From positions 26,814,376 through 26,878,375 of the forward strand of contig NC_092567.1 in NCBI RefSeq assembly GCF_037975245.1: 64,000 nucleotides of DNA, given 5' to 3'. Each line of letters begins with the position of its first letter. The first letter of the stretch is position 1. Position numbers and translations under genes: made by a program. Below, piece by piece: positions 30,065 through 61,166 of the stretch. Source of the stretch: Apostichopus japonicus (lineage: Eukaryota > Echinodermata > Holothuroidea > Aspidochirotida > Stichopodidae). Below the pieces are notes generated by a model. The model did not search any database. It saw only the letters and a list, made by a program, of their open reading frames with translations, and was not told the DNA's origin.

Positions 30065-30975
30065 GGTCTAGCTTCCAGTGTATGGCGGGCCATCAGTCTC
30101 AAATCGTGGGAGATCGACTTATACCGATTTAAATCGACATATACCAATTTCCTTCGACTTATACCAGTTTCCAGCAGCTTCAATTGACTTCTACCGAATT
30201 AAATTGACATAAATCATTTTAGTTCTACATATCTATGGAGGGCCATCAGTCTCAAGTCGTGGGAGATCGACTTATACCGATTTAAATCGACATATAGCAA
30301 TTTCCTTCGACTTATACCAGTTTCCAGCAGCTTGAATCAACATATACCAGTTTAAGTCTACATATCATCGATTTAAATCGACATATACCAGTTTAATTCG
30401 AATTATACCAGTTTAAATCGACATATACCAATTTAAATCGATGATATGTAAAATAAATCGATGATATGTCAATTTAAATCGACATCTACCAATTTAAATC
30501 GATGATATGTCGAATTAAATCGGTAGAAGTCAATTTCCGTGGACTTATACCAGTTTCTATCAACACAAATTGACATATACCTATTTAAATCGCCACATCT
30601 TCGATTTAGCTCATTAACATATTCCAAATCCCGATTTCGGTGATGATTGACATGTGGAGATACATCACGTGTAGTCGCCTGACAAGGCGGGCGAATAATT
30701 AAAAATAAACACGAGCACAGTGGAATGCATGATTTAAACTGGTATAAGTAGAATTAAATTGGTATATGTCGATTTAAATTGACATATACCGATTTAATTC
30801 GACATATCATCGATTTAAACTGGTATATGTCGATTTAAATTGACATATACCGATTTATTTTACTTATCGATTTAAATTGGTATATGTCGATTTAATTCGA
30901 TGATATGTCGAATTAAACTGGTATATGTCGATTTAAATCGACATATACCAATTTAATTCGACTTATCATCAGGTC
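30065..30975. repeat. Palindromic AT-rich repeat cluster (ATTTAAATCGACATATACC)
   Basis: Dozens of copies of ATTTAAATCGACATATACC in both orientations, plus ATCGATGATATGTC variants, in two blocks (30081-30560 and 30735-30975) around ~170 bp of unrelated sequence. A ~153-bp direct duplication (GGGCCATCAGTCTCAA at 30087 and near 30240) lies at the left. The inverted arrangement could be the subterminal repeats of a DNA transposon or a palindromic satellite. Confidence 0.7.
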
Positions 30976-31252
30976 ATCAAAGAATGACAACTGGAATTAA
31001 AACTAACTGGTTATTGTGTTCCAATAATTTTGAGGCACATTGCAGAATGGTGAAGAATGGTGTCACCTCTACATACATACATTGCGATTTAATTCAATCA
31101 ACCGCTACATCACATGTCCTTATATTTTCTATGTTCAATTCTCGCCCTTTGTCTGTTCAGACTTCCAGAGATCGGAGAAGGATAAAGAGGAAAGAAGTTG
31201 GTTCCACCCGGCCACTCTTTCGTGCTGTACAATATGTATGTGTTCTTATTAC

Positions 31253-46107: not shown

Positions 46108-49100
46108 TCAAGTCCATGGAATCCAGTTTCCACCATGCAGCATTGGGTTGGAATTAGGATCTCTTGGCTTCCTTGCAGATGGTATCATAGTGGAATTGTA
46201 AAACCGCAGTCGGTCCATTAGTTCTGACAATATGTCTGTTGACGAATTAAATATAAATGTATGAAAGAAAGTGATTTCTTAAGAACAGGCTCTAAAATAC
46301 ACTTTCAGAAACTTAATCCAAAGTCTGACAAAGAATTCATGAAGCTAATAAACTTCAACTTTGCAGATACATAGTTAATATAAGTTTTCTTAATGCAAAC
46401 AAACCAAAAAATGTTATTTAGTTTATAAATATCTTACAAGCATGCAATATCTAATATGAAACACATAACGTTAAAAACAACCAGAACGCCAGTTGGTTTT
46501 GTGGTTCCTTTGCTGACTTTCTGACAAATGTAGAGCAGTTGAGTTAAATTTGAAATAACTATCTGACTAATGTAGAGCAGTTGAGTTAAATTTGTCCAAG
46601 AATGAAGTGAAAACCAGAAAAGATCAGAGATTCCCAGCTCTTACTTGTAGCACTCCCTTGTGGGCATCGACCATTCCATCTACAGTATCGAACGTTTATT
46701 CCAAAATGTTTCAATATCCAGAAAGAACAGTCTTCTTATTTGAAATATACTCAAATATATGTATGAATAAATGGACATTTTCTTTTACCAATTTTGAGCT
46801 ACCAATCTTGTAACCATCCCTTTAATAATTGTTATTAATGAATGACGCACTCCTGACATTGTATATACACTGTGAAATATTTTCACAACTTACTGCCAAA
46901 GCAAATGTCATCTACTATAAATCATAGAGAAAATGCCCAATTTTGAGACCTCTTGAGCCAATTTTTCCACAATTTGAGATAACCTGTTGATCCCTTGAAG
47001 CCCAGAGGGTGAAAACTGATAAGTAACCATAAAAGTACTGATTACTGTATGTATTGAGACTTACAGAGCCCTTCACTAAACTAAACTGAATTTGACCAAA
47101 CCATGTTCATCAAAAGAACATAATCATAGCACTTGAGAATGCACATGTTAATTGGAACTTTAATTTTGGAGTTTAAAAGGTTTTCAGACTTTGACCTCCG
47201 GCTGATCTCACTTGACCTTTGACATCTACAAATTTCAATATGATTCTTGCACTCACCAAGCTGGATCTACATACTAAGTATGAAGTTCAAGAAAGATGTA
47301 CCAATTGTGTTTCATGTTTACAAGATTTTTTTGACTTAAATGTTGACTGCAAATGACCTTTGACCTCCACCAGTTTCAACAAAGATGTAGTTTTAAAGTC
47401 ATCATATTTACAAAGTTTTCAGACTTTGACCTCTGTTGACTACAAATGACCACCTAACTTCACAGAAAAGAACAGGGTTCTTTTACCCAGGTCAACAGAT
47501 CCATATACCTAGTATGAACTTAATCCACCATGAACTTCCTTTAGTTACGTTGTTTACAAGCAAGTGTCACATACGCACACACACGCCCACACACACGCAC
47601 GCACCATCACATAGATTCCTTCAACCTGCAGTAAGGAATGATAAACTAACATCTTTGTACAAACTCAGTCATCAAAAGAAAATAAATAAAAAGTCTGACA
47701 ACAACATTATTGAGGGTCAATATTAACTTCTGCACTGGTTTCTCTTCTCAGACTCAATTCATAAAACTTACCTGGATACATATCTGCAAGGTTGTAGAAT
47801 TCACATGGATCATTAGGGATGTGGTACAAACAGGGTTTCTTAGCAGGGTCACAGTTGGTGCTAGCATTAGCCGGAATCGGTGGGCAGTATACAACACTTG
47901 CCTTTGGCAATTTCTCATGTTCTGTTTGGACAGAATGGAGATAATCATATAACACATAGGGTGTATGACACTTAGAAAACTTTATGCACAACTGGACAAA
48001 CTTACGATAGAATTAAATATCTTTCTCCCTTCCCTTCCCTTCCCTTCCCTTCCCTTCCCTTCCCTTCCCTTCCCTTCCCTTCCCTTCCCTTCCCTTCCCT
48101 TCCCTTCCCTTCCCTTCCCTTCCCTTCCCTTCCCTTCCCTTCCCTTCCCTTCCCTCCCCCTCCCCTCCCTTCCCTTCCCTTCCCTTCCCCTCCCTTCAAT
48201 TTTAGTAACATTTTCACACAAATTGTCGATACATTTCTTGAAGCATGATATGATAGCGTAAGATAACTCTACTTACCATTATTTTCACCCTCTGGAGGAT
48301 ACCAGCCGGACCATTGACCATCATAAACATTACCAGTGATGACCTTGTAATCACCGCTTCTGAGAGCTCCATAGCTACCAACTGGATCGATGTTTAGTAG
48401 TATCTCCCTGCGAGGAGACGGACTATCACTGAAAGACGCAATAAGAGACCAACAATCGTGTTCAACACTTAAATCATACACTTGCGAAACAATTAATGGG
48501 TGATAAGTATGCTTTATCCTTGCATCAGAAAAGAAGGCAGTTTTAGTCTTTATTCACAGATGTGAGGGGGAAAGGGGCTGAAGCTGGTCAGAGGATGGAG
48601 ATATGGGAGAGGGGGGAAGGTTATATAATCTGCCCTGTTTCAGAAATTCTTTGAATGTAATTATTATATCCTCATTTGTACATTGAGAACAGGAAAAAAT
48701 GTTTGGATTTTTGTTAATCCTAAATAAACTGACAAAATTTAAGAATTAGATTTATTTCAATTCAAACAGATACAAGATTAAAAGTTGACCAAACCAAATA
48801 ATTTTCCAATGGTAAGGTGATTGGAGGCAGAAATATAAATTCTGTTCTGCTTCAAAAATAATTTTATAATTTAAATAAAAGTGGAACTGGATATCCTAGC
48901 CTCACTTTTACATTGGGACCACCATGAAATATTTCCAATATTGGTATTTTTAGAGAACTGGCAATAGACATCACATGTGACGCACAATTGGGTGTCGTCG
49001 GCATACATCATATACTGAAACCATGACGGACAATTATATCCTCAATGGGTGCCGTGTACAAACTAAATAATTCTGGTCCCAACACTGAACCCTGGCGGAC

Positions 49101-52100
49101 ACAACAATCTAAAGGTTTAACATCCGACATGACCGACCCAACTGTCAAACCTCAAATATGAACTAAACCACTTATGTACCACACCATCAATACCAAACCT
49201 CGAACACAACCAGCAGGTTCTCAGAGAGATTCCTCAACACATGGACTAGTTTCTTGAAAGGATTATCCTAGGATTATCCTAGGATTATCCTAGGATAGTC
49301 CTAGGATTATCCTAGGATTACCCTAGGCCCCATGTAACATACTTTGATATTGTATCCCAGATATCGAACCCATCGTAAGTATCTTCGCTGATGTTGCCAC
49401 CGGCTAATTTCAGGATCGTTGGGTAGAAATCAGTCACGTGGAGGAGTTTATCAGAAATCCGACCCTTCTTGTTAATGAGTGGGCTGTGTACAAATGACGT
49501 TCCCCTAACTCCTCCTTCCCAGAGGGTGTGCTTCACACCCCTCAATGGGAAGTTGTTGGCATAGTTACCATCAAAGCCATGAGCTGGACCTCCATTGTCG
49601 GTTGTAAATATTATTATGGTGTTATCATACAGGCCAGCTTCCTTCAGGTAAGCAGTTACATTACCCACAGAGTCATCTAAAGCAGCTACCATGCCTGGAG
49701 ATAAACAAGAATATAACGCAGAATGCAGAATGTGACGCAGTTATAAGGTATCCATGGAATACTTTCCTTATTATCTGCTATTATCTGCTTATTATATGCT
49801 GTTACCTCCGACCATATGGTAGCCTAACACAATGGGAAAATCTTGCCTAACCATTGGTTTGCAAAAAAACAAAAATCACACTGCGTAGGATTGGGTAATA
49901 AATAAGTATCGCTTCGGGCGGGTACCCGGATACCCCATGCAAACACTATTTGAAAACAGTTCACAATAACATGGTTATATGCTAAACTAATAAAGCTTTG
50001 GTTGACACAATCCGATTGAGCACCAAAATGTTTTGTTTTGTATTATTTGTGTACATTTTCAATTTTGATTGAAAATTTGAAAGGACTTTCAAGTTTTTTG
50101 CAAACTTAAGCTTAAAGAGGCAACAACATGAATAAAGCAATTAATATTCAAATAAACTGTAAAAATTCTTCCTACCAGCAAATTTTCTACGCTTTTCAAA
50201 GCTGATGTGAGGAAATCGATCGATATATTCTTGTGGGGCTTGTAGAAGGTCATCTTTGTTGGCACTGTGTACGGCTTGGTGGGCCAGGTAGAGAAAGAGG
50301 GGCTGTCAAGAATAAATCAGAGAGGACTTGTTTGAGCAGCATGGCCTGAGGAATACTGGGGGAGCACAGGAGAGAGTAGTAGAAGGCAGAATGGGTGAAA
50401 TTAGGATGGATGAAGGTGGTGTCCCTAATGGAAGGCAGATTGGGTAAAATTAGGATGGATGAAGGTGGTGTCCCTCATGGAAGGCAGAATGGGTGAAATT
50501 AGGATGGACGAAGGTGGTGTCCCTCATGGAAGGCAGAATGGGCGAAATTAGGATGGACGAAGGTGGTGTACCTCATGGAAGGCAGAATGGGCGAAATTAG
50601 GATGGACAAAGGTGGTGTACCTCATGGAAGGAAGAATGGGTGAAATTAGGATGGACGAAGGTGGTGTCCCTCATTGAAAGCAGAATAGGCTAAATTAGGA
50701 TGAAGGTATAAAATAATATTCAGAAGGATGATTTGAAAAGAAATAATATTGCTAACAATCTTTGATAGCAATTTAAGAAAATGTCTTTGTAAGGAATGTT
50801 TTAAGGTTTTGCCTCTCCTACTGCTGACCAGTCTATAATATATTTAAGAGGAATTTCTCTGAAAGTAGTACCCTTTTCAGTTCAAAGAATCTTGGTTCAT
50901 TTTTTCAATAAACATATACGGTAGGTACAATGCAATAGTGCATATTATCCATTACAATGTACATGTGCCAATATATGCATGTTATAGATTTTAGACATTT
51001 TCAAAGCAATTAATGGCCTGCCCTAAAAAATAACTCACCTTGCTAGGGTCATGACCTTTGATGATTTCTCCTGCTTTTGCTGTAAATATCTCTGTTGAGT
51101 ATTGGCCAAACACTGGCTTGTATACATTCCCATCTTGGTGAAAGTCAAACCCTGTGAAATTTTGCTTTAATAAACAGCAGATATCATGAATATGCAACAG
51201 CAATTGCCACATTGTTGTAAATAATAACATTAATATGTAAACCAAACTAAACTGTCAGACATATACTAAGCCAATGATAATGCTAATGAATAACCAATAC
51301 AATTACACAATACAACTACATCATGAATATGCAACAGCAATTGCCACATTGTTGTAAATAATAACATTAATACGTAAACCAAACTAAACTGTCAGACGTA
51401 TACTAAGCCAATGATAATGCTCATGAATAACCAATTACACAATATAACTACATCATGAATATGCAACATTTTATCGGCATGTCTTCTAGGTAGTTTTGAC
51501 AATTTCCTAATGTTCATACCACTCTATACTGTATTCTCGTATCGTGCTTCAGAGCACTTGAACTGACAGTAAAAACAGTTCCTGACCTTTATCGAATAGA
51601 AACAAGAATGTTCATACTGCTCATACTGTCAGTACACCTTCCTTGAAGCATTAAAGTACAGTATGAAAGCAATAATCAACACTAGGTTTTATTTCATAAG
51701 CAATTGCTGTAAGCATGGATTAAAATATCATCATTCCTGACCATAACAAAGTCAATATCATTTATCATCTTATGAACATGTAACAGCTCACCTCATGAAT
51801 ATGCAATAGCTTATCTCATAATTGATATGGTTGAAGAAGTCACCTTTACCACAGTAGTATCCATAGTAAGAATCAGGGCCGTCTTAAGAGATCACCGGGC
51901 CCTGGGCCCGGTAATGGAGCGGGGCCCCTCAATCAAGTGAGTTCGAAAAGATTTGCGTGAAAAATTGACATCCTTGACAAGCGCTCACACATAGACATGC
52001 CTGCATTTACCAACCCTCCCTATGTCGCGCATAAAGCATACAACTTTAGCTGAATAACATACGTGATATATCTAAAAGCTGAAATACATTATAGAAGAGT

Positions 52101-55100
52101 AATCTTCCAGTTGCCCTCCATCCCTTCCCTAACAATACTGGACTCACCATTTGTAACACCCTTGTGTTGAGTCTTTCAACTGAAAGGAGTGTAGGCGGTT
52201 TTACACTATCTAACGCAACGTAGTCGCCAAGCGCATGAAGTATTTTTAAGGGAGGGCGCGAGGAACATGAACTTATAGCATGCTCCTCATGGTGAAACAT
52301 AATTGCACCTATTAGGTGAATTGAGTGTACTGTTAATGGTAGGAGAGACTAGCGTAGGTTCTTATGACCAACTAGACCGGTTTCTGCTCTCAAACTTTAT
52401 AGGAGGAGCTTCATCAGTAGTAGCCTTTGAATATTTTATATTCGGCCTGGGCGTCTCGTTTTCAAAATGCATCTATTTTCTGTGCACAAGTTTTTATGGA
52501 CTCATAGTGCAGCAATAAGAGCATCTAAAAGAGCTTCGTGTGAACCTTGAGAGTCAGCTGATTCTTCGTTAGTACGAAACCTTAAGTTAACAAGTAAATC
52601 TTTGAGATTTTGGGCCCTTTTGTAGGCTCGAATCGGTTCTTTTGGAAACAGTTTGGATAATTCCGCGTGTTGCGAGATTAAGTGCCAATGTTTCAAAAGT
52701 GCTTTTTTTTTCAAATGCGTGATTTTGATATGGGGTGTATAGGTGAGCTTGAACACAAGTGGTGGTTCCTTTTGTTTAGGTTCGGTAGTGAGGTATTGCC
52801 CACGGTTTCAAATTTTATGCCTTTCGTGGCTGAGGCAATATCCTCTTTCTTATTGTTACGGAGTAACAGTTTCTCTGTGTAAGCCTTCGGGGGATTGTAT
52901 ATTCCAGGGTTGCCAACTCAGATTGGAATATTTAATGTCAAACTCTCAAGTGTTTCACCAACTCTCGCCACAAGTTGTCAAGTATCGAATTCAATCAGGC
53001 ATAATGGCCTATTCAAAAAGTTTTCCTCCCATATTAAGACATGGGGTTACTATGATTGCGGGGCCCCTGACATCACGGGCCCTGGGCCAGGGCCCAGTGG
53101 GCCCATGCGTTAAGATGGCCCTGGTAAGAATCAAAGCCTCTTTGTGTTCCAATGTAAACCTCATTATAGAATATATAACAGCTCACCTCATGAATATGAA
53201 TAAGCTTACCTCATAATTGATATGGTTGAATTAGTCACCTTTTCCACAGTAGTATCTATAGTAAGAATCTAAGCCTCTTTGTGTTCCAATGTAAACCTCA
53301 TTATAGAATATGTAACAGCTCACCTCAATATGTAACAGCTCACCTCATGAATATGCAATAGCTCACTGCATAATTGATATGGTTAAAGTAGTCACCCTTA
53401 CCACAGTAGTATCCATAGTAAGAATCAAAGCCTCTTTGTGTCGCAATGTAAGCTTTATTATAGAATATGTAACAGCTCACCTCATGTATATGCAATATCT
53501 CACCTTATGAATATGCAATAGCTCACCTCATAATTGATATGGTTGAAGTAGTCACCTTTACCACAGTAGTATCCATAGTAAGAATTAAAGCCTCTTTGTG
53601 TTCCAATGTAAACCTCATTATAGAATATGTAACAGCGCACCTCATGAATATGCAATAGCTCACCTCATAATTGATATGGCTGAAGTAGTCAGCCTTACCA
53701 CAGTAGTATCCATAGTAAGAATTAAAGCCTCTTTGTGTTCCAATGTAAGCCTCATTATAGAATATGTAACAGCTTACCTCATGAATATGCAATAGCTCAC
53801 CTCATAATTGATATGGTTGAAGTAGTCGGCATTACCACAGTAGTATCCTTAGTAAGAATTAAAGCCTCTTTGTGTCGGAATGTAAACCTCATTATAGAAT
53901 ATGTAACAGCTCACCTCATGAATATGCAATAGCTCACCTCATAATTGATATGGTTAAAGTAGTCACCTTTACCACAGTAGTATCCTTAGTAAGAATTAAA
54001 GCCTCTTTGTGTTGGAATGTAAACCTCATTATAGAATATGTAACAGCTCACCTCATGAATATGCAATAGCTCACCTCATATTTGATATGGTTAAAGTAGT
54101 CACCCTTACCACAGTTGTATCCATAGTAAGATTCAAAGCCTCTTTGTGTTCCAATGTAAACCTCATTATAGAATATGTAACAGCTCACCTCATGAATATG
54201 CAATAGCTCACCTCATAATTGATATGGTTGAAGTAGTCACCTTTACCACAGTAGTATCCATAGTAAGAATTAAAGCCTCTTTGTGTCGGAATGTAAACCT
54301 CATTATAGAATATGTAACAGCTCACCTCATGAATATGCAATAGCTCACCTCATATTTGATATGGTTAAAGTAGTCACCCTTACCACAGTTGTATCCATAG
54401 TAAGATTCAAAGCCTCTTTGTGTTCCAATGTAAACCTCATTATAGAATATGTAACAGCTCACCTCATGAATATGCAATAGCTCACCTCATAATTGATATG
54501 GTTGAAGTAGTCACCTTTACCACAGTAGTATCCATAGTAAGAATTAAAGCCTCTTTGTGTCGGAATGTAAGCTTTATTATAGAATATGTAACAGCTCACC
54601 TCATGAATATGCAATAGCTCACCTCATAATTGATATGGTTGAAGTAGTCACCTTTACCACAGTAGTATCCATAGTAAGAATTAAAGCCTCTTTGTGTCGG
54701 AATGTAAACCTCATTATAGAATATGTAACAGCTCACCTCATGAATATGCAATAGCTCACCTCATAATTGATATGGTTGAAGTAGTCACCTTTACCACAGT
54801 AGTATCCTTAGTAAGAATTAAAGCCTCTTTGTGTCGGAATGTAAGCTTTATTATAGAATATGTAACAGCTCACCTCATGAATATGCAATAGCTCACCTCA
54901 TAATTGATATGGTTGAAGTAGTCACCTTTACCACAGTAGTATCCATAGTAAGAATTAAAGCCTCTTTGTGTCGGAATGTAAACCTCATTATAGAATATGT
55001 AACAGCTCACCTCATGAATATGCAATAGCTCACCTCATAATTGATATGGTTGAAGTAGTCACCTTTACCACAGTAGTATCCATAGTAAGAATTAAAGCCT

Positions 55101-58100
55101 CTTTGTGTCGGAATGTAAACCTCATTATTGAATATGTAACAGCTCACCTCATGAATATGCAATAGCTCACCTCATAATTGATATGGTTGAAGTAGTCACC
55201 TTTACCACAGTAGTATCCATAGTAAGAATCAAAGCCTCTTTGTGTCGGAATGTAAGCTTTATTATAGAATCCAAGATGCCACTGATGATGTAAAGAAGAA
55301 AAAAGCCCCCCAAAAAATAATAAACAAAAGTGGGAAAATTTTTCGAAATTTTTTAAACCCAAACAAAACAGTAGTAAAGGGGTCAATTTATGCAAGAGAA
55401 TCCACTAAAATAAACTACAAAGAAATCCTAAAAAGAGGTTCTCAGTATTGGCTCTGAATTTTTAACATTTACAATATAAATGAAAACTTTATATGAGAGA
55501 AATTCTGACTCAAATTACTCCATAACTTTGAAGAGGATTCAATTAGCCAATTAAATGATTCCACAAGGGAAACAATTAAAATGTTGTCATGAAACCTTTA
55601 TCTTGTTTCAACATGAATGTGGTCATTTAACTCAATCTGTCTAATTTCTGACATATTTAAGGCAATATTGATGACTTTTTGTGAGAGAGAAAATAAATGT
55701 CTGCAAAACAAGAAAGAAACAATTTCTAAATGATATTAAAAAGAATAAACTGGATGATTTCATGCATTTCATTTCTCAATTCAGAAAAAGTGAGATTAAT
55801 ACTGCCTACTAAACATGACCTGCTTGTGTACCATACATATTTCTCAATCTAGATAAAGTGAGATTAATACTGCCTACTACACATGACCTGCTTGTTAGTG
55901 TACCATACATATTTCTCAATTCAGAAAAAGTGAGAATAATACTGACTACTAGACTTGACCTGCTTGTTAGTGTACAATACATATTTCTCAATTCAGAAAA
56001 AGTGAGATGAATACTGCCTACTAGACTTGAGCTGCTTGTTAGTGTACCATACATATTTCTCAATCTAGATAAAGTGAGATTAATACTGCCTACTACACAA
56101 GACCTGCTTGTTAGTGTACCATACATATTTCTGAATCTAGATAGAGTGAGATTAATACTGCCTACTAGGCTTGAGCTGCTTGTTAGTGTACCATACATAT
56201 TTCTCAATCTAGATAAAGTGAGATTAATACTGACTACTAGACTTGACCTGCTTGTTAGTGTACAATACATATTTCTCAATCCAGATAAAGTGAGATTAAT
56301 ACTGCCTACTACACATGACCTGCTTGTTAGTGTACCATACATATTTCTCAATTCAGAAAAAGTGAGATTAATACTGCCTACTACACATGACCTGCTTGTT
56401 AGTGTACCATACATATTTCTCAATCTAGATAAAGTGAGATTAATACTGCCTACTAGGCTTGAGCTGCTTGTTAGTGTACCATACATATTTCTCAATTCAG
56501 AAAAAGTGAGATTAATATTGCCTACTAGACTTGAGCTGCTTGTTAGTGTACCATACATATTTCTCAATCTAGATAAAGTGAGATTAATACTGCCTACTAC
56601 ACATGACCTGCTTGTTAGTGTACAATACATATTTCTCAATTCAGAAAAAGTGAGATTAATACTGCCTACTACACAAGACCTGCTTGTTAGTGTACCATAC
56701 ATATTTCTCAATCTAGATAAAGTGAGATTAATACTGCCTACTAGGCTTGAGCTGCTTGTTAGTGTACCATACATATTTCTCAATTCAGAAAAAGTGAGAT
56801 TAATACTGCCTACTAGACTTGAGCTGCTTGTTAGTGTACCATACATATTTCTCAATCTAGATAAAGTGAGATTAATACTGCCTACTACACATGACCTGCT
56901 TGTTAGTGTACAATACATATTTCTCAATTCAGAAAAAGTGAGATTAATACTGCCTACTACACAAGACCTGCTTGTTAGTGTACCATACATATTTCTCAAT
57001 CTAGATAAAGTGAGATTAATACTGCCTACTAGGCTTGAGCTGCTTGTTAGTGTACCATACATATTTCTCAATTCAGAAAAAGTGAGATTAATACTGCCTA
57101 CTAGACTTGAGCTGCTTGTTAGTGTACCATACATATTTCTCAATCTAGATAAAGTGAGATTAATACTGCCTACTACACATGACCTGCTTGTTAGTGTACC
57201 ATACATATTTCTCAATTCAGAAAAAGTGAGATTAATACTGCCTACTAGGCTTGCGCTGCTTTTTAGTGTACCATACATATTTCTCAATCTAGATAAAGTG
57301 AGATTAATACTGCCTACTAGGCTTGAGCTGCTTGTTAGTGTACCATACATATTTCTCAATCTAGATAAAGTGAGATTAATACTGCCTACTAGACTTGACC
57401 TGCTTGTTAGTGTACCATACATATTTCTCAATCTAGATAAAGTGAGATTAATACTGCCTACTACACATGACCTGCTTGTTAGTGTACCATACATATTTCT
57501 CAATTCAGAAAAAGTGAGATTAATACTGCCTACTAGGCTTGAGCTGCTTGTTAGTGTACCATACATATTTCTCAATCTTGATAAAGTGAGATTAATACTG
57601 CCTACTACACATGACCTGCTTGTTAGTGTACCATACATATTTCTCAATCTAGATAAAGTGAGATTAATACTGCCTACTACACATGACTTGCTTGTTAGTG
57701 TACCATACATATTTCTCAGTTCAGAAAAAGTGAGATTAATACTGCCTACTACACATGACCTGCTTGTTAGTGTACCATACATATTTCTCAATCTAGATAA
57801 AGTGAGATTAATACTGCCTACTAGGCTTGAGCTGCTTGTTAGTGTACCATACATATTTCTCAATCTAGATAAAGTGAGATTAATACTGCCTACTAGGCTT
57901 GAGCTGCTTGTTAGTGTACCATACATATTTCTCAATCTTGATAAAGTGAGATTAATACTGCCTACTAAACATGACCTGCTTGTGTACCATACATATTTCT
58001 CAATCTAGATAAAGTGAGATTAATACTGCCTACTAGGCTTGAGCTGCTTGTTAGTGTACCATACATATTTCTCAATCTTGATAAAGTGAGATTAATACTG

Positions 58101-61100
58101 CCTACTACACATGACTTGCTTGTTAGTGTACCATACATATTTCTCAATTCAGAAAAAGTGAGATTAATACTGCCTACTAGGCTTGAGCTGCTTGTTAGTG
58201 TACCATACATATTTCTCAATCTTGATAAAGTGAGATTAATACTGCCTACTACACATGACTTGCTTGTTAGTGTACCATACATATTTCTGGTTTCAGTTGT
58301 TTTCCGCATACGTTACTTTCCGCTGATTACTTTCCGCTGAAAAAATTCTTCTGCGGAAAACACCGATTTTTCACTTGCCTGTACACTATATTTTTCCGCA
58401 ATTTTGAGATACCAAATTCAGGCAGGATGATTAAAATAACATGAGAAAGTATCAAAGAACGTCGATCAAGGATGGTTAGACTGAGTTCATGTCAGAATAG
58501 TTAAGCTGCTTATAATTTAGAGGAGGCTTGGGGTGTTCGTAATTACGAATTATTAAAGAAGCATATAATACTGGGCAAAGGGACGCCCGCGTTATGAAGG
58601 ATTGAGTATCTAATTAAGTATTAAATATTCGGCCCGCGTAATGATGGTTTAACAAAAAAGGTGTAAAAGGCGGTATCTTTGATTTTCGCTGGAAATAAAA
58701 TGGCTGTATAAGTAAGCCTTACAGCCTAAGCTACAAGTACAACCTTAGCTACTGTATCCTAAATCTAGTCTCGAAGCTACATTTTATCCTGTTACAGTCA
58801 AATCCTATCTTATCCATCTTCCTAAATCCCTCCATGTGCCTAATAATTTCAGTAAGTCATTCTGTTCCTCCCAAAAAGAAACGGTACTTTCCGTTGAAAA
58901 AAACGTTGTTTTCCGCTGACAAATTTGTTTGCGGAAAACAACGTTTTGTTTCAGCGGAAAGTAACGTGTGCGGAAAACAACGGTACCCCATATTTCTCAG
59001 TTCAGAAAAAGTGAGATTAATACTGCCTACTACACATGACCTGCTTGTTAGTGTACCATACATATTTCTCAATCTAGATAAAGTGAGATTAATACTGCCT
59101 ACTACACATGACTTGCTTGTTAGTGTACCATACATATTTCTCAATCTAGATAAAGTGAGATTAATACTGCCTACTACACATGACTTGCTTGTTAGTGTAC
59201 CATACATATTTCTCAGTTCAGAAAAAGTGAGATTAATACTGCCTACTACACATGACCTGCTTGTTAGTGTACCATACATATTTCTCAATCTAGATAAAGT
59301 GAGATTAATACTGCCTACTACACATGACTTGCTTGTTAGTGTACCATACATATTTCTCAATTCAGAAAAAGTGAGATTAATACTGCCCATTACACAAGAC
59401 CTGCTTGTTAGTGTACCATACATATTTCTCAATCTTGATCAAGTGAGATTTGGTTGCTTTTTTACCCTTTGTTCAAAACAAAGTCTCTGTTTGTTCTTGC
59501 TGAGCATTTATTGAGAAGCCCTGGCATAAGATGTTACATGAGTAGTCACATCAATTCAGCCTGTTTTCAGCAAAATTTCATGCATCTTCTAAATCTATTA
59601 CAATAAGTAAATTAACAGCAGAAAGCAGGCAGGATGGTTATAAAAAAATTTGAAAGGAGCAAAGGAAGTGTTGCAGTTTAAGTATGGAAATGCTGAAGCA
59701 GAAACTGTTTAACCTCATAACAGGCATGTAGAATGACAAACAATGATACCTTGCCAACTGCATGGGTCGTGTAACCTAATTGTCTCAATTTTTCTGGTAA
59801 CATGGTGAAGTTCAGAGGAACCCCATAGGGTCTCGATGCACCTATTGTGAGTGTCTGCATACCTGTCAACAGGGTTATCAAAAAGCAACATGATATTAAA
59901 AGTGCACCCCCTTCTTCCAGATATAATACCTTTCCGACTGCATGTGTCTTGTAACCCAACTGTCTTAGTTTTTCTGGTAACATGGTGAAGTTGAGGGGTA
60001 CTCCATAGGGGTGAGTTGCAATGATGACACCAGTCTGCAAACCTGTCGACAGGATTTATCAAAATACAAGGGCAGGTTCACCATGTTAAGATTACTTGAT
60101 CCTATAATTTCCCAATGGCATCTCTTAAGCCAGTTGTCTCAACTTTACAGTTAGCATGGAGAAATGAGTAACATTGTATCAGTCTACACCTCTGTCACCA
60201 GGCAAGGTGTATCACCAATTTATTATGCAGCAAACACAGTGTTCTTTCATCACCAATTTGCAATTATCGTTATACCTTTCCGACTGCATGCGTCTTGTAA
60301 CCCAATTGTCTTAGTTTCACTGGTAACATGGTGGAGTTGAGCGGGACTCCATACGGCTCAGTTGCTTCGATGGTATCGGTCTGCATACCTGTCAATAGCG
60401 TATTTTAAATGTAAATATCGCTCCTGACTTTGAAAACTTGGCAAGTTTGGGGGAATGTGACCATGACAATGCCCTCTTGACCAATGATTTAAATCAGAAA
60501 CAAATTTTGACCTGCAATATCATTTAAATGTTCAAGTATGGAATCACCAAACAAAAGCCATTTCACCTTTAAACTGAGGCTCTAAAAGATATGTAACAAA
60601 CAAGAACTAGATAGAAGGATACCTCTATACACAATTAAAAGAAGTCCCCACTAAAACCTGTACCTGTATGTATGGCATATCTACCAGTGAGCAGAGCACT
60701 TCGAGTTGGTGTGCAAATTGGTAACACATAATAGTTGAACAAAATCACACCATCAAGGGCAAGCTTGTCCATATTTGGTGTCAATATTTGAGGAGAGCCA
60801 TGAAAGCTTACATCATTCCAACCCTGAAAAATAAAGAAAAACAAAATAATTTTCATGAATAAATGTCTAAGAACTTTCTAACACACCAGACAAACATTGT
60901 ACATTCATCCATGAACAAACTATGCAGGTGTACAAATTGAGGCTCTGTGACATTAATATCCACGGCCCTAACCTGGATATAGGGGCTCCAGTGAACGGAT
61001 GCTATAGAGTGGCAAGCTTACCTTGGCATATGTACCAAGTTTCTGAACTTACCAAATCATCGGCTACAATCACAACCACGTGAGGCTGACTGAAGGCCAC

Positions 61101-61166
61101 AACACCAGAAACCACTGACAGAAAAAACACCACAGAAAAATGGACGAGTTGAACAGAGGTCACCAT
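46108..61166 (-). CDS. Arylsulfatase B-like sulfatase, ten exons, 510 aa, with alternative exon 3
   Basis: Family role: hydrolysis of sulfate esters, for ARSB the 4-sulfate of N-acetylgalactosamine in dermatan/chondroitin sulfate, in lysosome or secretory pathway. Exons in mRNA order: 61166-61053, 60823-60664, one of three exon 3 copies (60388-60276, 60042-59930, 59862-59750), 55281-55171, 51164-51039, 50302-50176, 49694-49343, 48428-48277, 47921-47772, 46235-46108. All are GT-AG and phases match throughout. Residues 1-26 are a signal peptide; metal ligands D36 D37; C75-T-P-T-R79 is the formylglycine signature; K129 plus H131 make the GKWHLG block across the exon 3/4 junction; H220; D283-N284; K305 in [11 protein letters not shown]; the C-terminus carries DPNSNP...HGGNW. 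Met at 61166 is preferred over 61217 because a possible acceptor lies between them. Weakest point: the exon 5 acceptor. An AG at 51166-51165 keeps frame and adds QNFT; the stronger-looking CACAG at 51153 would shift frame. Exact substrate is unknown. Confidence 0.88.
47560..47608. repeat. CA-rich simple repeat
   Basis: CACACACGCCCACACACACG in intron 9 of the arylsulfatase gene. Confidence 0.7.
48026..48196. repeat. (TTCCC)n microsatellite
   Basis: About 34 copies of TTCCC, perfect except near the end, in intron 8 of the arylsulfatase gene. Open frames on both strands are compositional. Confidence 0.95.
48955..49215 (-). mobile_element. LINE reverse-transcriptase fragment (CR1-like), decayed
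   Basis: Read on the minus strand, broken frames give a KWFSSYL segment, a motif-B block ([17 protein letters not shown]) and a motif-C block (MMYADDTQL) in order, with frameshifts between. This is part of the palm of a CR1/Jockey-group RT, in the same orientation as the host gene, in intron 7. Confidence 0.65.
49261..49328. repeat. 11-bp minisatellite next to the exon 7 donor
   Basis: Six copies of GATTATCCTAG, ending 13 bases from the GTATGT donor of arylsulfatase exon 7. Confidence 0.85.
50383..50705. repeat. 49-bp minisatellite in intron 5
   Basis: Between six and seven copies of a unit starting GAAGGCAGAATGGGTGAAAT and ending GGTGGTGTCCCTCATG. Confidence 0.9.
51184..51465. repeat. 137-bp tandem duplication in intron 4
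   Basis: TCATGAATATGCAACAGCAA at 51184 recurs at 51321, and a shortened start occurs at 51453. The copies are about 95% alike by eye. The head TCATGAATATGCAA is shared with the exon-4-derived array nearby, but the rest is different. Confidence 0.8.
51480..51700 (+). mobile_element. Dispersed short element, copy C (hairpin part)
   Basis: It aligns with 26557-26775: TTTTGACAATTTCCTAATG, TTCATACCACTCTA, ATCGTGCTTCA.AGCACT and TTCATACTG.TCATACTG occur in the same order. It sits in intron 4 of the arylsulfatase gene. Confidence 0.5.
51874..53123. mobile_element. hAT-like non-autonomous element, 1250 bp
   Basis: The ends are CAGGGCCGTCTTAA and, inverted, CAGGGCCATCTTAA (14 bp, one mismatch). An exact 8-bp target duplication GTAAGAAT flanks it (51866-51873 and 53124-53131). 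An 8-bp duplication with CAGGG-type ends fits the hAT superfamily. No transposase is recognised inside. Confidence 0.8.
52502..52786 (-). pseudogene. Retroelement ORF fragment inside the hAT-like element
   Basis: The minus-strand frame contains a LKHWHLISQ...LFPKEPI.AYKR..NLKDLLV pattern. From memory this resembles the segment after the reverse transcriptase in Penelope-like/GIY-YIG retroelements of animals, where FRR.KNLRDLLV is conserved. If right, the hAT-like element captured a piece of a retroelement. The similarity is from memory only. Confidence 0.35.
55282..55770. other. Unique part of arylsulfatase intron 3
   Basis: AT-rich; nothing recognised between exon 4 and the 72-bp satellite. 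Confidence 0.5.
55771..58288. repeat. 72-bp satellite in arylsulfatase intron 3, main block
   Basis: About 35 units built on TACTACACATGACCTGCTTG, TTAGTGTACCATACATATTT, CTCAATCTAG/CTCAATTCAG, ATAAAGTGAGATTAATACTGCC. Two alternating classes (CTAGATA versus TCAGAAA) and three head variants (CACATGACC, GGCTTGAGC, CACAAGACC) form a four-unit, 288-bp higher-order repeat, clearest at 56461, 56749 and 57037. The unit is 24 codons without stops, so both strands stay open for about 2 kb. Confidence 0.97.
58289..58988. mobile_element. 700-bp inverted-repeat element inside the 72-bp satellite
   Basis: The ends are inverted: GTTGTTTTCCGCATACGTTA near 58296 versus, on the other strand, GTTGTTTTCCGCACACGTTA near 58982, continuing CTTTCCGCTGA. 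CATATTTCT flanks both sides (58280-58288 and 58989-58997), a 9-bp target duplication. Nine bases suggest a Mutator-like or Merlin-like element. Extra internal GCGGAAAAC motifs recur near both ends. No transposase. Confidence 0.75.
58989..59446. repeat. 72-bp satellite, second block
   Basis: Six further units, continuous with the main block before the element at 58289-58988 inserted. Confidence 0.95.
59447..59749. other. Unique intron sequence next to exon 3c
   Basis: No feature recognised. Confidence 0.5.
59750..59862 (-). other. Arylsulfatase exon 3c (alternative copy)
   Basis: 113 nt between TTGACAG and GTATCA, same phases. The head reads [10 protein letters not shown]; the remainder is nearly as in 3b with K-to-T in [10 protein letters not shown]. 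Only 67 nt separate 3c from 3b. Confidence 0.85.
59930..60042 (-). other. Arylsulfatase exon 3b (alternative copy)
   Basis: 113 nt between CGACAG and GTATTA, same phases as 3a. The head reads [10 protein letters not shown]; the remainder differs from 3a only by S-to-F and V-to-E. It keeps the N-x-T sequon and terminal Lys. Confidence 0.85.
60100..60192 (-). pseudogene. Decayed fourth copy of arylsulfatase exon 3
   Basis: Between 3a and 3b the plus strand shows TTGTCTCAACTTTACAGTTA, AGCATGG and CAGTCTACACCTCTGTCACC in the same order and spacing as the intact copies, but with indels and no usable donor. It is an eroded exon duplicate. Confidence 0.6.
60276..60388 (-). other. Arylsulfatase exon 3a (alternative copy)
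   Basis: 113 nt between GACAG and GTATAA. It begins with the last two bases of Gly92 and ends with Lys129. The variable head reads [10 protein letters not shown], followed by the conserved PYGVPLN.TMLP and [10 protein letters not shown]. Confidence 0.85.

Follow-up and report, generated by a model that had tools for sequence, protein, structure and literature searches.

Does a single arylsulfatase gene of the sea cucumber Apostichopus japonicus make several enzymes by choosing among tandem copies of its third exon? The question is raised by a window of 64,000 nt, by which we mean the whole stretch of DNA that was analyzed; it ends about 19 kb short of the end of contig C7, in a genome of 671.6 Mb on 35 contigs. 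A preliminary description of this window had reported three consecutive 113-nt copies of exon 3 and proposed that exactly one of them enters each mRNA, so that one gene would make three sulfatases with different segments near the active site. We designate the three copies C, B and A in the order of transcription, and a fourth, decayed copy between C and B, which the preliminary description does not mention, is designated D.

The minus-strand gene that carries copies C, B and A is an intact arylsulfatase-B-like gene (Table 1). The boundaries of exons 1-8 were fixed from the sequence and the closest paralog; the phases are consistent across all eight exons, and the product comprises 418 residues at the end of exon 8. 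A phase mismatch had pointed to a micro-exon between exons 4 and 5, but the exon boundary of the paralog, which moves the acceptor 13 nt further upstream, resolves the mismatch. The versions of the protein containing C, B or A match the Pfam Sulfatase family (PF00884) with E values from 3e-58 to 7e-58, and the DDLGW and TDNGG segments as well as the Lys and His of GKWHLG are present in every version. The C-x-P-x-R formylglycine motif, encoded in exon 2, reads CTPTR. The GKWHLG segment, whose Lys and His have catalytic roles in sulfatases, is split over exons 3 and 4, such that Lys129 closes each of C, B and A and WHLG opens exon 4. As the phases agree, the Sulfatase family is matched and the C-terminal exons are present, the gene looks complete and alive; a pseudogene was ruled out by the agreeing phases, the sulfatase scores of all three versions and the presence of the C-terminal exons. 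Judged from these features, the host gene is an S1 formylglycine sulfatase of the ARSB-like kind with predicted activity.

Table 1. Features of the arylsulfatase-B-like gene, given as positions in the window.
Feature	Position	Strand	Content	Basis
Exon 1	61053..61166	-	start codon; N-terminus resembling a signal peptide; IVADDL strand	gene model, phases consistent
Exon 2	60664..60823	-	formylglycine motif, Cys75	gene model and PF00884 piece
Exon 3 copy C	60276..60388	-	113 nt, first in transcript	
Exon 3 copy D	60104..60216	-	decayed pseudo-exon	limits extrapolated, about
Exon 3 copy B	59930..60042	-	113 nt	
B-A intron	59863..59929	-	67 nt; candidate branch-point A 34, 52 or 55 nt away from 5' splice site	
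Exon 3 copy A	59750..59862	-	113 nt	
Exon 4	55171..55281	-	WHLG..., complete copy	gene model
Exon 5	51039..51164	-		gene model and paralog boundary
Exon 6	50176..50302	-		gene model
Exon 7	49343..49694	-	TDNGG	gene model
Exon 8	48277..48428	-		gene model
Exon 9 candidate	47770..48009	-	C-terminal, limits not set	tblastn with paralog ORFs, E 2e-17
Exon 10 candidate	46111..46212	-	C-terminal, limits not set	tblastn with paralog ORFs, E 4e-9

The gene belongs to a large sulfatase family in this genome. At least 106 matches to PF00884 were found, many of them clustered at G000:C17:35.9-36.5 Mb and on C11, and these counts are lower bounds. As a separate observation on the assembly, contig C29 contains COX1 as a series of consecutive pieces with broken frame, plus an additional piece (G000:C29:14745-16086 and 30842-31219), and a clean COX1 is present on C35. 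Translated with genetic code table 9, the C35 gene shows Asn at AAA codons (as in STNHKDIG and GGFGNW) and Ile at ATA codons, at positions where these residues are conserved, which most likely indicates an echinoderm. The pieces on C29 are either a rearranged mitochondrial copy or an assembly fragment.

Each of the copies C, B and A is 113 nt long, is flanked by AG and GT, and is entered in phase 1 and left in phase 0, in agreement with the preliminary description. The transcript order of the four copies is C, D, B, A, and their spacing of 172, 174 and 180 nt indicates repeated tandem duplication of one unit consisting of the exon and about 60 nt of intron. D lies in register with the intact copies, and its alignments to C, B and A each score above all 2000 shuffles; it contains gaps and stops and has no donor. 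At least four copies of exon 3 were thus made at this locus, of which three survive intact and D has decayed. A sensitive blastn search for further decayed copies in the surrounding introns yielded weak short matches only.

An artefact of the assembly or a duplicated haplotig was ruled out as the source of the copies. C, B and A differ from each other, which excludes a simple assembly stutter, and a DNA search of the genome with copy B returned three matches, all at the sulfatase locus, which argues against a duplicated haplotig as far as a DNA search can see. When the genome was searched with the exon 3 protein, 15 matches were obtained, namely the three at the cassette and 12 elsewhere. No two of these 12 lie within 24 kb, and no tandem exon 3 was seen in the other sulfatases of the genome by this search, the sensitivity of which is such that diverged tandem copies could escape it.

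The gene also carries other repeats. A 137-bp tandem array follows exon 4 (53124-55281, and about 51815-51873) and contains 14 truncated copies of exon 4 plus one that is split by an insert. The truncated copies begin inside the exon, lack WHLG and the acceptor, and repeat GAG|GTGAGC donors. This array was considered as a second coding cassette and rejected, as its copies have neither the WHLG codons nor an acceptor and 4 of the 14 contain a stop. The insert that splits a truncated copy (51874-53123, 1250 bp) carries short inverted repeats at its ends (CAGGGCC...) and is accompanied by a target duplication of 8 bp, ATTCTTAC, features by which we take it to be hAT-like. Just upstream of exon 5, a 137-bp unit is repeated 2.1 times (51183-51468); its period equals that of the exon 4 array, and a CATGAATATGCAACAGC-like word is common to both. 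Much of the intron between exon 3 copy A and exon 4 consists of a 72-bp minisatellite with 35 copies at 55771-58288 and 6.4 copies at 58989-59450, broken by a segment in which TTACTTTCCGCTGA-like motifs occur in either orientation.

We then considered the eight ways in which C, B and A can be included between exons 2 and 4. Three combinations stay open through exon 8, and all of them are single-copy; the remaining five, in which no copy, any of the three pairs or all three copies together are included, run into an early stop. The preliminary description had argued that exactly one copy must be chosen because 113 is not a multiple of three. The rule itself holds for all eight combinations, but its reasoning does not cover triple inclusion: three copies add up to 339 nt, which is divisible by three, so that length alone does not bar this combination, and it is a stop inside copy B that does.

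A productive mRNA would accordingly join exon 2, exactly one of C, B and A, and exon 4. Exclusivity would arise mainly after splicing, in that skipping or multiple inclusion would give an early premature stop and thereby nonsense-mediated decay; frame and decay together would be enough to leave single-copy products only. For the B-A pair, a second safeguard may exist. The intron between these copies has the 67 nt reported previously, and of the candidate branch-point adenines, which are based on motifs, the one 34 nt from the donor falls below the steric limit of about 50 nt between donor and branch point that is used in two papers (PMC5740500, PMC7969005), the other two lying at 52 and 55 nt. 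Splicing of B to A might therefore be sterically blocked as well. The C-B intron spans 233 nt with the D relic included, so steric block cannot act there now. The acceptors of C, B and A contain 8-10 pyrimidines in 16 positions versus 11-14 of 16 for exons 2 and 4-8, and such pyrimidine-poor acceptors could leave the choice of copy to regulation. Pairing of the docking/selector kind was searched for in 13 intron pairs of this one sequence, with the intron after A represented by its first 400 nt and 100 shuffles for each pair, and nothing consistent was detected: for the lowest pair 2 of 100 shuffles were as low, and for the other pairs 12 or more.

At the protein level, each pair of copies differs at exactly seven residues, and 9 of the 38 positions are variable overall. 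Six of these nine fall in residues 93-102, where the preliminary description had placed most of the differences, and PYGVPLN, the N109-x-T111 sequon and Lys129 are kept in all three copies, as it had also stated. Taken alone, the concentration of the nine variable sites within a 7-residue window does not reach significance (p 0.078). At exon positions 5, 8 and 11 (protein residues 96, 99 and 102), no two copies agree: C, B and A read D, G and L at position 5, E, I and G at position 8, and E, H and R at position 11, respectively.

The variable positions were compared with an alignment of 12 paralogs from the same genome, in which L016, L018, L020, L021, L023, L024 and L026 had been extended upstream in frame to 38 residues. 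Mean entropy is 2.14 bits in the nine replaced columns and 1.06 bits in the remaining ones (p 0.0007). All replaced columns vary among the paralogs as well, the 12 low-entropy columns are all unchanged, and exon position 8 is the most variable of all 38 columns. Changes confined to family-variable columns, with the conserved columns spared, are what coding use predicts. Replacements at paralog-variable columns fit tuning of specificity and also plain tolerance of change; position 8 may help to set specificity or may just tolerate substitution. Val91 and Val93 of ARSA and Tyr108 of GALNS lie near the substrate. The literature consulted on the equivalents of the variable loop in GALNS or ARSA contained nothing usable on its structural role.

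The divergence among the copies was analyzed over 38 codons only, with synonymous sites between A and the other copies near saturation. Between A and either C or B, 60-68% of the synonymous and 11-13% of the nonsynonymous sites are different, and the Nei-Gojobori estimates are dS 0.34 and dN 0.13 for C-B, 1.75 and 0.12 for C-A, and 1.21 and 0.15 for B-A. In a codon model of the three copies, omega = 1 everywhere was rejected (2dlnL 24.42, p 8e-7), and fixing A at 1 was 9.9 lnL worse than one omega. For B and C, omega = 1 since their split was not rejected, either jointly (2dlnL 3.5, p 0.17) or for B alone (p 0.56) and C alone (p 0.069). The picture was similar with a paralog as outgroup: A = 1 was rejected (p 0.0004), and B = C = 1 was not (2dlnL 2.72, p 0.099), nor was B = 1 alone (p 0.62) or C = 1 alone (p 0.71). 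The sister pair is not decided with the outgroup, where the three topologies have lnL from -419.43 to -419.58; under a clock, B and C are sisters by 2.5 lnL over the other groupings. These analyses show that A has long been under purifying selection and that, given a clock, the B/C lineage has been as well; both have probably served as coding sequence for a long time. By the same measures, the C/B/A cluster is old and well preserved.

Exon 4 is multiplied in truncated, evidently non-coding copies and the introns are full of tandem arrays, so that local duplication is cheap in this gene, which counts against a functional cassette. On this ground one could suppose that only A works and that the other three copies are remnants of tandem duplication, as the truncated exon 4 copies are; when the outgroup is used and no clock is imposed, neutrality of the stem, B and C is indeed not rejected (p 0.098). 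With a clock and equal numbers of parameters, however, a model in which A alone is constrained falls 4.5 lnL below one that constrains all copies (8.3 for C alone and 10.7 for B alone). The synonymous divergence of at least 60% between A and C or B would further mean that B and C stayed intact for very long by luck, and the exon 3 copies are complete, whereas the truncated exon 4 copies have no acceptor and some have stops. We therefore regard use of A alone as improbable. Control by poison exons, in which double inclusion or skipping would direct mRNAs to decay and thus set the level of the enzyme, would account for the early stops in all five non-single combinations. It would make amino acid conservation in each copy needless, yet the replacements avoid the conserved columns and each of the three pairs has a dN lower than its dS, and we consider it very improbable.

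A closer competitor is a two-way switch between A and one of B and C, the other being a recent, still intact relic that is heading for the fate of D. That copies die at this locus is evident from D itself, and under the clock, constraint on A, C and the stem with B neutral gains 0.84 lnL over a single omega. The corresponding A+B and B+C models are 2.8 and 9.1 lnL worse. A constrained stem followed by neutral B and C exceeds the single-omega model by 1.3 lnL, a point against a functional cassette. The free omega of the B branch is about 2 in unclocked fits, a value as compatible with adaptive change as with neutrality; in the clocked fit, the omega of B is 0.47. B nevertheless retains its splice sites, its frame and all 12 conserved columns. 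In simulations with assumed divergence and indel ratios, for which D serves as the decayed control, a neutral B or C remained free of stop, splice loss and indel in 0.7-18% per copy, and a neutral B stayed intact in frame and splice sites in 1-18%. All considered, we find the two-way switch somewhat unlikely.

Three intact copies, the logic of the frame and the pattern of substitution are best fitted by one-at-a-time use of exon 3. We consider it quite probable, on sequence grounds, that the locus is a mutually exclusive tandem exon cluster in an ARSB-like sulfatase with at least two copies in use, a reading broad enough to include the two-way switch. Tandem duplication of an ancestral unit, consisting of the 113-nt exon 3 and some 60 nt of intron, would have produced four or more copies, one of which decayed; several of the copies would be spliced in vivo, and at least two are likely used. 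Two or three enzymes would result, identical except between the formylglycine segment and Lys129. The residues at positions 5, 8 and 11 (acidic D/E/E in C, G/I/H in B and L/G/R in A) may alter substrate choice or binding. The fuller proposal, that one gene makes three sulfatases with different substrate preferences through a loop that is acidic in C, neutral in B and basic in A, the versions being made in different tissues or stages, is possible but on balance doubtful. Of the corresponding claim in the preliminary description, alternative use of one copy at a time stands as the best fit, given the frame, the long constraint on A and the B/C lineage under a clock; the part that requires all three copies is less certain, as neutrality of B and C since their split was rejected neither without nor with the outgroup.

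Sulfatases are usually thought to have one specificity per gene. If the proposal is true, sulfatase specificity would here be set by splicing and not by separate genes, and isoforms that differ in one 38-residue segment would, if the cassette is used, constitute natural swap experiments on sulfatase specificity. With three copies alive and one dead, the locus documents how alternative exons are born and lost. The high synonymous divergence (dS 1.2-1.7) predicts that the cassette is present in other echinoderms.

Within this genome, the closest exon 3 outside the cassette is that of the paralog at G000:C7:24081606 (L015/L027), with 55% identity. It shares with the cassette gene the positions of the two introns that flank exon 3, and a single exon 3 was found there, with no tandem copies seen. 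Among solved structures, human ARSB (PDB 1fsu) is the best relative (E 4e-112 over residues 27-383), and the alignment with it runs gap-free through exon 3 as far as GKWHLG. The ARSB loop contains two cysteines (WPCQPSC), whereas the gene described here has T/S and G at these places. We know of no duplicated exon in human ARSB.

Clusters of mutually exclusive exons are well known in animals. In arthropods, the Dscam and Mhc clusters resemble the sulfatase cassette in having more than two alternative exons in tandem; exclusivity in Dscam is brought about by docking/selector RNA pairing, and no such pairing stood out in the sulfatase introns. In humans, 236 events of mutually exclusive tandem-duplicated exons in 214 genes (PMC9741552) and 629 clusters of mutually exclusive exons (PMC5740500) have been reported, and the word 'sulfatase' is absent from the main text of the former. 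A report of a duplicated-exon cassette in a sulfatase was likewise absent among the open-licence papers listed, as judged by their titles and the starts of their abstracts, which is weak evidence that the example is unreported and agrees, within that scope, with the preliminary description, whose author knew of none. A functional analogy is OGDH, an enzyme tuned by the swapped exons 4a and 4b, for which a short intron with branch points less than about 50 nt from the donor is proposed as a steric block (PMC7969005). OGDH has two such exons and mapped branch points, whereas the branch points of the sulfatase are guessed from motifs and its copies C and B lie 233 nt apart. In the human sets (PMC9741552, PMC5740500), mutually exclusive exons are homologous neighbors in the same frame that swap one segment of an otherwise constant protein, often have a length that is not a multiple of three, and are mostly ancient. 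The cassette described here resembles these exons and is distinguished by its occurrence in a sulfatase and by its three intact copies accompanied by a dead one.
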